From Anaerolineae bacterium (GTDB lineage: Bacteria; Chloroflexota; Anaerolineae; Anaerolineales; Villigracilaceae): DNA of 64,000 bases. How positions within the stretch are numbered: the first letter of the stretch is position 1; each line of letters opens with the position of its first letter. Below, one piece after another: positions 11,508 through 18,538 of the stretch. Location of the stretch: contig JABGOQ010000099.1 in assembly GCA_018645405.1 (NCBI GenBank), positions 1 to 64,000 on the forward strand, read 5' to 3'. A model generated the notes under the pieces. The model saw nothing but the letters and a program-made list of their open reading frames with translations, had not been told where the DNA came from and made no database searches. The position numbers were made by a program, and so were the translations under genes.

Positions 11508-12239
11508 CTAAACTTCGTAGCCCATTTTTTTGAGGGATGTGCCGAATCGCTCTTGGATTTGGGCTTGCTGATCGTTTGTATACGCTTCTTTGTACCGACC
11601 AATTTTCCCTTTAAAAAAATGCAAACCCTGCTGCCCCGTATCCGCTTTGCCGGGGCGATACTCTTCGATGACTTTTTGATATTTTTCTTCACTCACGTCT
11701 ACCCCCAGATAGCTGAGAAGATGATTTATCTCTGTATCGTAGTCTGTGAGCAAAGCTTCATAGCTGGTGATCAGGATGTTTTTCTCGCGCATCCAATCTT
11801 CCCAAATTTTGACGTAATCTGCCATAAAGCTGAGTGTTTCATCAAAATTCTTTAAACGAGAGAAGAAGTTCGGTCGTCCTTTCTCGATGGAGCGTTGACC
11901 ATATTCATAGGCGGAGAGCATTGCATCGCGTGGGTCGCGGTAGATGTAGACAATCCGTAGCAAGCCCAAGGTAGCGAGCGTCCGTGACCAAGTTGTGGGT
12001 CCGGCATGCGCTTTGAGTACAAAATCACGTCCCATCAACGCCGGGATGCTGACCATCCCCAATCGCCTTAAAGATAAAACACCGATATTGACATTCACTT
12101 CGGTCAGAATATTTTGCAAACGAAATTTCTCACGGATTTCGCGGGCATCATCGTAGCCTGCCGCGTCCATGAGGTCGTGGATGATATTGTAGTGCCAGCC
12201 CGAGCCAGCGCGCGGCATGCCGACTGATAGAACGATCAT
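11508..12239 (-). CDS. PAPS-dependent sulfotransferase (copy 1)
   Basis: A 243-residue cytosolic-type sulfotransferase. The 5'-phosphosulfate-binding loop is GMPRAGSGW (residues about 7-15), and the 3'-phosphate-binding motif is IYRDPRDAMLSAY in the middle of the protein. The C-terminus has the usual lysine/glycine-rich segment (KADTGQQGLHFFKGKIGRYK). It transfers sulfate from PAPS to a hydroxyl or amine, here presumably on a glycan precursor. Its start overlaps the stop of the ligase-like gene by 4 bases, so it is the last gene of that translationally coupled run. PAPS could come from the Sat-CysC fusion at 43.6 kb. Confidence 0.85.
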   Translation of the reverse strand: MIVLSVGMPRAGSGWHYNIIHDLMDAAGYDDAREIREKFRLQNILTEVNVNIGVLSLRRLGMVSIPALMGRDFVLKAHAGPTTWSRTLATLGLLRIVYIYRDPRDAMLSAYEYGQRSIEKGRPNFFSRLKNFDETLSFMADYVKIWEDWMREKNILITSYEALLTDYDTEINHLLSYLGVDVSEEKYQKVIEEYRPGKADTGQQGLHFFKGKIGRYKEAYTNDQQAQIQERFGTSLKKMGYEV

Positions 12240-13816
12240 GTTTGCTCCTGTGAGGCATGATGTATTATGCCCAGCACGATTCCAAAATTAACCCATAGCT
12301 CTGCCATGGCGAAGGAATCTTGCATGAAATAATAAATAACGATGGCAAACCAAGTATAAAGTCCGGCTATGGCGAGCGTTTTTTGCTTACGTTGAAAGGC
12401 TTCACCGATTTTGGCAAGGATGGAAAAGATAAAAGAGCCAAAGATGCTAAACCCAATGACGCCCGTCTCTATAAGAATACGCAAATAGAGATTTTTGGTA
12501 TTGGGATAAAGTTGTGTGACAGGGCTAAGTTGCCGCGAAACTTCGGGGTTATTATACAGTGCCCAATCGGGATATTGTTGAAAAAGATAAAGCCCCGCGC
12601 TACCCAAGCCCGTCCCTAAAATGGGATATTGTGCATAAGCTTTTGCACCTGCCCAAAGATAGGTGAGCCGCCCCCCAGCATTGATTTGCACAAAATAATC
12701 AGAGAGAGAATTTGCTTCTACAGTCCAAAGGCGAGAAACATATTCTTGCTCGGTGATAAAAGATACGCCCCCCCACGCCATTGCAATGATGATGATAAAT
12801 AAGATAGCGCGGGTAGCATAGTGAGTAAATTTTGAACCGCTAAGATGCCAAGAGCGCGAAGTTTTGAGTGTTTTTTCTCTTGGTGTTTTTAATACCTTCT
12901 TGGTGTTCTTCGCGTCTTGGCGGTTGTTCTTTTTGAATATAAAGAACCAACTAAAAGCACGCGAAATTGCTTTTCTTCCGCTAATGAGCAATGTTAGTCC
13001 TGTTGCGGCGATTCCGATCAGTAGCCCGCCACGTGAGAAGGTCAATAAGAGAGATGCGACTGCGCCAATGAAAAGAAGTGGTTCTAGCCACTTATATTTA
13101 GTAACTCGAAAGCGCGTAATGATAGAAGCAAAAAGCCACGGGAGATAAAGCGTCACGATTTGCCCTGCCAGCCACGAAGCTTCAAAGGCGAATCCTGAAA
13201 CGCGGCGCACTTTTGTAAGTCCACGCACGGAGAAAATTTCTTGCCACGCGGAGACTTGTCCCTTTTTGAGCAGAGGCGTGTGGAGGGCTATTGCCTGCAC
13301 GCCCACCCATAAAATGGTGATAAAAAGCCCCGCGTAGAGCCACTTTAGCGAGTGACGTAAATCATCTTCGTCACGGTGCATCCATAAAGCGGCAATAAAA
13401 AAAGATAGCCCAATCGCAAAGGTGAGAAAGGCACGTAGAGCACGCCCCCAATAATCATGAGTATATAAAGAGATCGGAGCCAGCAATGCGCCGCCGGCAG
13501 TTACAAGAATCGTGAAAGCAAAAAAGAGCAAAAGCGGGGGGAGCGTGTTACTCCACGGGAGCTTGATTTCTTTTCGCATTAAACGCAAAAACAAAACAAG
13601 ATATAGCAACGCCAAAGGATAAAATGCCAATGGACGGACGTAGGTATGCTTGCTTAAAAAAGGAAAAAAACGAAAAGATGTAACAGGGAGGGTTAAGAGA
13701 ACAAATCCCCACAGGAGGCGGGAGAGTTTTTCAAGGTTTATCCATGAAGACACACGAAGAAACACGAAAGTTTTCTTTGTGCTCTTTGTGTCTCTGTGGT
13801 GAGTATCTCTACTCAT
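12236..13816 (-). CDS. O-antigen ligase/polymerase-like membrane protein (Wzy_C) with repeat-derived inserts
   Basis: A 526-residue protein with about 11-12 membrane segments. The Wzy_C-type region near residues 395-470 includes GTGLGSAGLYLFQQ and the downstream LYLRILIETGVIG, which mark WaaL/Wzy-type ligases and polymerases acting on the outer face of the membrane. Two stretches look foreign. Residues about 5-26 are encoded by an intergenic-type repeat (13737-13802), and residues about 298-328 by a 91-base inverted repeat (12835-12925); both give Lys/Arg/Thr-rich peptides between hydrophobic segments. The start overlaps the Wzz-like stop (ATGAGTAG). The gene is intact in frame despite the inserts. 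Confidence 0.8.
   Translation of the reverse strand: MSRDTHHRDTKSTKKTFVFLRVSSWINLEKLSRLLWGFVLLTLPVTSFRFFPFLSKHTYVRPLAFYPLALLYLVLFLRLMRKEIKLPWSNTLPPLLLFFAFTILVTAGGALLAPISLYTHDYWGRALRAFLTFAIGLSFFIAALWMHRDEDDLRHSLKWLYAGLFITILWVGVQAIALHTPLLKKGQVSAWQEIFSVRGLTKVRRVSGFAFEASWLAGQIVTLYLPWLFASIITRFRVTKYKWLEPLLFIGAVASLLLTFSRGGLLIGIAATGLTLLISGRKAISRAFSWFFIFKKNNRQDAKNTKKVLKTPREKTLKTSRSWHLSGSKFTHYATRAILFIIIIAMAWGGVSFITEQEYVSRLWTVEANSLSDYFVQINAGGRLTYLWAGAKAYAQYPILGTGLGSAGLYLFQQYPDWALYNNPEVSRQLSPVTQLYPNTKNLYLRILIETGVIGFSIFGSFIFSILAKIGEAFQRKQKTLAIAGLYTWFAIVIYYFMQDSFAMAELWVNFGIVLGIIHHASQEQT
12835..12925. repeat. Inverted repeat inserted in frame within the ligase-like gene
   Basis: The left arm begins AACCGCTAAGATGCC and the right arm ends as its near-complement (GCGTCTTGGCGGTT), giving imperfect arms of about 27 bases around a short centre. 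The minus-strand reading encodes a basic peptide including NRQDAKNTKK. A half copy of the same repeat lies in an intergenic gap at 18391-18417. Confidence 0.75.
13737..13802. repeat. CACGAAGAAACACGAA-type repeat forming the ligase N-terminus
   Basis: An imperfect palindrome with a CACGAAGAAACACGAA core at 13753-13768, also found at 14541-14556 and, with one change, at 39534-39549. Here it lies inside the 5' end of the ligase-like gene and encodes a peptide with HRDTKSTKK. Confidence 0.7.
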
Positions 13817-16879: not shown

Positions 16880-18382
16880 CTACCGCAAATCGAAAATCAG
16901 ATACCCCTCGCCTTCTGTATAAAGGGGGTAATTGGCAGTGAGATATTCGTGTAAATCTTCTTGTGCTTCCCATTCGTTAAAATCGGTGATTATAAAAAAA
17001 GAGCGGTCTTTGGCGTGTTTGTTAAAAACTTGAGTAAAATTTTGCGGATCACCACGTTTTTCTTGATACCATAAATCGCCTGCGGAGGGCCAGACTGTAT
17101 TATTGAGCCAACCCCAATAATTGAGTCTGTAGCCATAATCTTCTGAGAGGGCGACTGTTTTTCCTTCACCGCGTAGTAAATCGCCAACTTCACGATAGCT
17201 TTGAGCAAGGGGGCGATAGTCTGTAGCGCGGAGGTCGGCACGAATTGTCCACGCGGCACCGAGCAGAGCAAGTGTCCACGTAGCGACAAAGATAAAGCGC
17301 GGTATCACACCTGTTGACAAGCGCGAGCGCAGCGTCCCGCTGATCATCTCCCCAAGAGGGGCTAAGGATAATGCGGCGACCGGGATAAAGGGCATTTGGT
17401 AATAATCGTGCGTTGAGAAGTGATAGTTAAAAATTAATCCGTAGAGGATATATCCGCCCCAGAGACCGTAGACAATCCCATTTTTCTTTTTAGGAAAAAG
17501 GAGCAAGCCAAGCAGGGCGAGTGCGATACCGAGATAGCCAATGACTTCATCGAGATTTAGCCCCCAGCGCAAATAAAAGGAGGGTGAAATGAGCAGGTCG
17601 GGGAAGAAACGCCCGCTGTAATTTTGGGAGGTGCCGCCGCTGAACGCCAAGCCGTTGACGTAATACGCGAGGGTCGGGAGCAGGGCGAGGGTGGCGATGC
17701 CCCAAACTTGGACGTTATTAAAGGCTTTTTTGAGCGACATTTTCTGGAGGACGGTGAGAAGTGCCGCGCCTGCAATAAAAAAGGCTGCTATCACTTTCAT
17801 GAGGGTTGCCAAGCCACCAAAAAGCCCCGCTAAAATTGCCCATTTCCATTTTTTTTCATCTGACCAGCCCGCCAGTGCCCAAATAAATGCCGCGATGAAG
17901 GCGACCATGAGAGGGTCAGGTTGAAAACTTCGGCTGGCGTAAACGCTATAGGGGAGGTAGAGATAAAAAGAGGCGGTCAGGAGCGCGCCATCGGGCGAGA
18001 CGAGACGGCGTGCAGCGAGAAAGAGAAAGGTGCCGCTGATAACCCAAATTATCGCTGTAATGATGCGTGGGAGGGCGAGGTCGGCTTCTCCTCGCTGTGT
18101 GTAAGCGATGACGGTCAGATATTCAAGAAATTCTGGTTCTAGTGTAATTTGTGTTTTCCACTGCTGGACAGCCATATCCCGTTGCCACTCGGGGATATTA
18201 GGCGCGATGCTTTCGTAATACATCCCACGGGCTTTAAGGGCAGAGAAGAGCTGGCGCGTGGGGTGAAAGTCGAGAGGCAGGTCATCGATGTCGATCATCC
18301 GTACCGCAAATGCGCCGATGAAGAGGGTGAGGGTGAAGAGCCAGTAAATGGGTTTGGGGATGTAGGATGTTTTTGAGTTCAT
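16880..18382 (-). CDS. GT39/ArnT-like membrane glycosyltransferase
   Basis: A 500-residue GT-C protein with about 11 membrane segments. The first outer loop carries DIDDLPLDFHPTRQ (about residues 30-43), with acidic residues where the family keeps its catalytic Asp. RSFQPDPLM follows a conserved loop about residue 150. The C-terminal 110 residues are a soluble outer domain with ALSEDYGYRLNYWGW. It is a clear paralogue of the gene at 20958, with the same two motifs and the same ending (EGYLIFDLR / DGYLLIDLR). Likely reaction: transfer of a sugar from a polyprenyl-phosphate donor outside the membrane. Confidence 0.8.
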   Translation of the reverse strand: MNSKTSYIPKPIYWLFTLTLFIGAFAVRMIDIDDLPLDFHPTRQLFSALKARGMYYESIAPNIPEWQRDMAVQQWKTQITLEPEFLEYLTVIAYTQRGEADLALPRIITAIIWVISGTFLFLAARRLVSPDGALLTASFYLYLPYSVYASRSFQPDPLMVAFIAAFIWALAGWSDEKKWKWAILAGLFGGLATLMKVIAAFFIAGAALLTVLQKMSLKKAFNNVQVWGIATLALLPTLAYYVNGLAFSGGTSQNYSGRFFPDLLISPSFYLRWGLNLDEVIGYLGIALALLGLLLFPKKKNGIVYGLWGGYILYGLIFNYHFSTHDYYQMPFIPVAALSLAPLGEMISGTLRSRLSTGVIPRFIFVATWTLALLGAAWTIRADLRATDYRPLAQSYREVGDLLRGEGKTVALSEDYGYRLNYWGWLNNTVWPSAGDLWYQEKRGDPQNFTQVFNKHAKDRSFFIITDFNEWEAQEDLHEYLTANYPLYTEGEGYLIFDLR

Positions 18383-18390
18383 AAAGATTT

Positions 18391-18538
18391 AACCGCTAAG
18401 ACGCGAAGAGCGCGAAGATTGTAGTCTTTGGCAGATTTTATAAGTAGTTTTTAACACGAATTGCGCGAATAAGCGAATGACACAAACACTTTAATGTTTT
18501 TACTCTCGTTATTCGTCCATTCGCGACATTCGCGTTAA
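18391..18538. repeat. Two adjoining intergenic repeats
   Basis: 18391-18417 is a half copy of the repeat found inside the ligase-like gene (AACCGCTAAGACGCGAAG). 18451-18538 is a separate inverted repeat with arms TTAACACGAATTGCGCGAAT and its near-complement ending GCGTTAA. Related copies are at 55479-55566 and 63451-63530. The right arm overlaps the last 10 codons of the neighbouring GT2 gene. Confidence 0.7.

Follow-up and report, generated by a model that had tools for sequence, protein, structure and literature searches.

The 91-bp repeat inside an O-antigen ligase-like gene is probably a non-autonomous mobile palindromic element, i.e., a member of a low-copy family of Candidatus Desulfolinea that inserts beside TTTTG and is tolerated in protein loops. 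It lies in a window, i.e., the whole 64,000-nucleotide stretch of DNA that was analyzed, from a genome grouped in the genus Candidatus Desulfolinea (Anaerolineales). The following features were annotated.

12236 to 13816, minus strand: host gene, Wzy_C / O-antigen ligase family membrane protein of 526 aa (ORF and Pfam match).
12830 to 12834, plus strand: TTTTG tag directly next to one palindrome end, read as CAAAA on the coding strand.
12835 to 12925, minus strand: in-frame palindromic element of 91 bp, coding strand AACCGCCAAGACGCGAAG...CTTAGCGGTT, encoding ligase residues 298-328.
12835 to 12861, unstranded: arm 1, AACCGCTAAGATGCCAAGAGCGCGAAG, three CGCNAAG-type units at 8/9-bp spacing.
12899 to 12925, unstranded: arm 2, CTTGGTGTTCTTCGCGTCTTGGCGGTT, inverted copy of arm 1.
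13742 to 13801, minus strand: second element-like palindrome (CACCACAGAGACACAAAG..., CAC-type subfamily), in frame at the N-terminus of the ligase, HHRDTKSTKKTFVFLRVSSW.
18391 to 18417, unstranded: half copy consisting of one arm, located between genes and upstream of the one at 16880-18382.

The repeat is an imperfect palindrome, AACCGC...GCGGTT. Its single strand folds into a long hairpin of -16.6 kcal/mol (DNA parameters); dinucleotide shuffles averaged -6.96 (z = -4.50), and 0 of 200 folded as well. A 91-base repeat with long imperfect arms had been claimed here from the sequence, together with a half copy in the intergenic gap at 18391; the coordinates were exact, and the half copy was identical to the arm at 25 of 27 positions. 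The sequence adjoining the half copy (18453-18484, AACACGAATTGCGCGAATAAGCGAATGACAC) resembles the arm of another short-unit repeat family.

The host ORF matched PF04932 (Wzy_C / O-antigen ligase) with an E value of 2.3e-9, and its start codon overlaps the upstream stop (ATGA). The palindrome is translated in frame as NRQDAKNTKKVLKTPREKTLKTSRSWHLSGS, a strongly basic peptide, and the ORF is intact. The original prediction of a repeat within an O-antigen ligase-like gene, read through as a basic peptide at about residues 298-328, was thus borne out. In an AlphaFold2 model of the ligase (40 sequences, mean pLDDT 83.2), only two stretches fell below pLDDT 50, i.e., residues 1-23 and 318-327. The insert block was at 50-66 apart from the latter stretch, and was modeled as a short helix (296-309) followed by disorder, between helices 281-292 and 329-356. 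This low-confidence segment between transmembrane helices agrees with the loop position that had been proposed. Basic segments of membrane proteins favor the cytoplasmic side, i.e., the positive-inside rule, and the composition of the insert suggests a cytoplasmic location. Residues 1-23 overlap the part of the protein that the N-terminal CAC-type element encodes; a CAC-type palindrome was also found in the ligase of L147, as at 13742-13801 of the window.

The closest named relatives of the window ligase were from MAG BB38 (Anaerolineales) and Candidatus Desulfolinea nitratireducens. When the ligase was aligned with its homologues, nearly all were without the insert loop, so it is not a loop common to all of them. 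The insert was confined to the window and G023 among 30 loci of the family. Among 80 named loci, it was found at the same place in L141 (the same as G023), L144, and L147, and was absent in 77. The presence is also patchy within the genus; of eight orthologues, the window, L141, L144, and L147 have it, and L142, L143, L145, and L146 do not. L142 is a close relative, yet it has no ligase insert. In the ligase tree, the carriers were not grouped together. The four inserts have the same orientation and phase, starting with AAC CGC CA and ending with GGT TCA AAA in the reading frame.

The repeat belongs to a dispersed family. By BLASTn (E ≤ 0.01), another dozen or so matches, full or half copies, were detected in the window genome, and all nine genus genomes carried the family with 2-15 matches each, these copy numbers resting on searches and fetched loci. 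The repeat is therefore not confined to this site. In the fetched genus loci, 54 distinct full copies of 44-139 bp were recognized, and their arms consist of CGCNAAG units at spacings of 8 and 9 bp. Two copies in G059 (L065), placed 1.2 kb apart, are near-identical over their whole length and have different flanks; the pair is direct evidence of copying. About 9 of the 54 full copies lie in credible genes, whereas about 90% of the window is coding. Insertions within genes are therefore strongly depleted, as one would expect were most of them harmful. Some copies are spanned by ORFs of 106-273 aa without homologue support (L021, L065, L078, and L113), which were not counted as credible genes, and L245 (315 aa, no Pfam match) is a candidate host gene only.

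The host proteins of in-frame copies were checked by Pfam. In MurJ, copies were found in G000 (half), G063 (full), and G064, with remnants in G023 and perhaps G061. In LutB, they lie inside the LUD domain (G000 and G050). In an FAD/Fe-S oxidoreductase, they lie between the parts of the 4Fe-4S dicluster domain (G050, G062, and G064); degenerate copies were seen in G000, G023, and G061, and none in G039. The MurJ of G059 and G023 (L290 and L300) has a second, unrelated palindromic repeat of TGACTTCAGTCATT...GGGCTAAAGCCCTTACTA type in frame in the same loop.

The copies are tagged on one side. Exactly one flank carries TTTG in 27 of the 54 copies and TTTTG in 21, and both flanks in none, against a local background per side of 0.9% for TTTG and 0.3% for TTTTG. 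The binomial P was about 4e-31 and 5e-31, respectively, with copies taken as independent though they are partly related. The flank opposite the tag tends to TT next to the element (AA on the tag-bearing strand). About half of the tagged copies lie directly upstream of a Shine-Dalgarno-like AAGGAG, and part of the tag signal may reflect this position rather than target choice, but the tags of copies inside the ligase and LutB genes are left unexplained by it.

The empty site of L142 reads AAATCTG/CAAAACC, against the filled site of L141, GGCGGTT/CAAAACCC. CAAAA at the ligase site thus appears to precede the insertion and not to have been duplicated, and TTTTG at 12830-12834 is a probable pre-existing landing site. 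L142 is the only empty site close enough to be read, and it could instead represent a precise loss. The ends of the insert were inspected for a target-site duplication, and none was found in the flanks of the ligase copy, with this one informative empty site.

From these patterns we infer transposition with TTTTG as the target. A copy would insert as a hairpin-forming unit beside 5'-TTTTG without target-site duplication, its orientation being set by the strand of TTTTG. Most insertions would survive only between genes. The few survivors within genes would be those in which the arms of CGCNAAG units are stop-free in a suitable frame and the site falls in a permissive loop. Such a copy would be translated into a short, basic, partly helical linker, presumably neutral for the protein. 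The loops in ligase, MurJ, LutB, and the FAD/Fe-S oxidoreductase are occupied repeatedly in different species.

In placing a hairpin unit 3' of TTTTG with no duplication, the process is similar to single-strand HUH transposition, i.e., that of IS200/IS605 and REP/RAYT. It is possible, though rather unlikely, that the element is a REP-like unit and that a RAYT-type (HUH, IS200/IS605-like) transposase mobilizes it at a distance. The hairpin unit, its one-sided tag, and the lack of duplication are consistent with this, and several Y1_Tnp genes were found in most genus genomes. However, the tag is not GTAG, the arms are longer than REP arms, and no Y1_Tnp gene is flanked by the element; none of 30 Y1_Tnp loci in genus genomes, a set to which seven weaker Y1 matches do not belong, had an element within about 1.5 kb. 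A protein of ~550-630 aa with a response regulator-like N-terminus (weak match) and a C-terminal Y1_Tnp (IS200-type) domain was found once in each of nine genus genomes, i.e., L088 (G000:C149), L267, L268, L272, L273, L274, L277, L285, and L287. It looks like a domesticated transposase domain.

The same-site copies could also derive from a single old insertion per site in the genus ancestor, followed by vertical descent and loss in some species. The phase and orientation common to all ligase inserts fit this, as does the FAD protein, in which six of seven genus orthologues have inserts, some degenerate. Likewise, the ligase insert of the window resembles that of BB38 (91st percentile). These two probably represent one shared insertion event, and the FAD-protein copies of G050 and G062 were probably inherited from a common ancestor. 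However, when the ligase carriers were compared, the codons for the same amino acid were identical at only 39-53% outside the element, against 9 of 12 to 11 of 11 in the arms (75-100%). The loops of same-site copies were also no more alike than those of random copies; 1264 of 5000 random sets reached the observed mean similarity, and 1811 of 5000 when the window-BB38 pair was removed, in a test whose power is limited because the elements are short and AT-rich. The inserts of L144 and L147 had intergenic copies as best matches, as did most intragenic copies. The ligase tree would demand three to four losses, each restoring a clean frame. A single old insertion is thus the less probable history. 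Because codon identity is far higher in the arms than in the hosts and sharing a site does not make copies more alike than random ones, repeated insertion into tolerant loops is favored, and we read the ligase site as having received at least three independent insertions, i.e., in the window/BB38 ancestor, L144, and L147.

That the hairpin is kept by selection for a function, i.e., mRNA structure or a cytoplasmic anchor or linker of the ligase, is improbable. The arms stay palindromic both within and between genes, and the insert is basic and placed between transmembrane helices, which would suit a function. However, the four genus members and almost all other homologues without the insert, the occurrence of the same family in unrelated proteins, and the low model confidence of the segment argue against it. 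An assembly or frame artefact, or a chance inverted repeat, could be suspected in a draft genome of 208 contigs with about 5% estimated contamination, but it was refuted by the same insert in the independent MAG BB38, by the family elsewhere, and by the fold z score.

The Rickettsia palindromic elements (RPEs), reviewed previously (PMC2229807, PMC10969869), are palindromes of 105-146 bp found in frame in 19 genes, and guanylate kinase, the one product tested, proved active (PMC2229807). In R. conorii, RPEs terminate in CGTC, and tagged REPs (GTAG, CGTC) include intragenic copies that are read through (PMC3733652). In recB of two Xanthomonas species, different REPs occupy about the same site (PMC3733652). 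The Desulfolinea family and RPEs are both palindromic repeats present several times per genome, between genes and in frame inside conserved genes. The encoded peptide is tolerated in RPEs and would be so here, and both are without a known mobilizing enzyme. However, the sequences are unlike, with no sign of relatedness, and the tag is TTTTG instead of the CGTC of R. conorii RPEs. The Desulfolinea copies are 44-139 bp with only tens per genome, and a striking feature is that they occupy the same loop repeatedly in different species. The likeness to Rickettsia elements that had been noted from the sequence therefore holds as an analogy, not as homology.

With REPs, the family shares a palindrome tagged at one end only and some intragenic, read-through copies; it differs in the tag (TTTTG, not GTAG/CGTC), in longer arms of CGCNAAG units, and in that no RAYT neighbor was found at the 30 Y1 loci. 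Bacterial MITEs with ORFs (ERIC/RU-1, RU-2, and NEMIS) are likewise short hairpins, non-autonomous and capable of in-frame fusion with genes, whereas the Desulfolinea family has no TA ends and no target-site duplication was seen in the ligase flanks. By analogy, this is the RPE / intragenic-REP phenomenon in a new phylum. What is new is the one-sided TTTTG tag and the finding that the same loops are repeatedly occupied across species. A literature search, from whose reach subscription papers mostly fell out, returned no paper on the arm sequence.

The best-known in-frame palindromic elements are those of Rickettsia, and there a decaying genome and a parasitic lifestyle could be held responsible. 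The presence of such elements in important genes (MurJ, LutB, FAD/Fe-S oxidoreductase, and ligase) of uncultured Chloroflexota suggests that neither is needed. Tentatively, it may be that a TTTTG-directed hairpin element with codon-readable arm units colonizes the same protein loops repeatedly and independently across the genus. If so, inter-domain and inter-helix loops would be landing pads for selfish DNA, with the MurJ loop taking even a second family. With eight ligase orthologues, filled and empty, and re-used loops, the genus offers a natural test of mobile DNA adding protein segments, and the same material could show what decides where inserts are tolerated. The one-sided TTTTG is a handle on the mobilization machinery.

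In an exact-pattern search across the phylum, 6 of 201 genomes were hits, in the family of the window and one other. Similar arms were found in Nostoc and Thiodictyon plasmids and in two viral contigs, so this arm type reaches beyond the genus. At L012 (G000:C42), a CGCNAAG arm is apparently nested inside a longer repeat of GCGGATT/AATCCGC type. In G031, from the same family but another genus, near-identical AACCGCCAAG palindromes were found (L120, L124, L133, L135, L137, and L140). These copies, which are part of a larger palindromic MITE whose ends resemble TCACTACCGTACA / TGTACGGTAGTGA, were left out of the family set.
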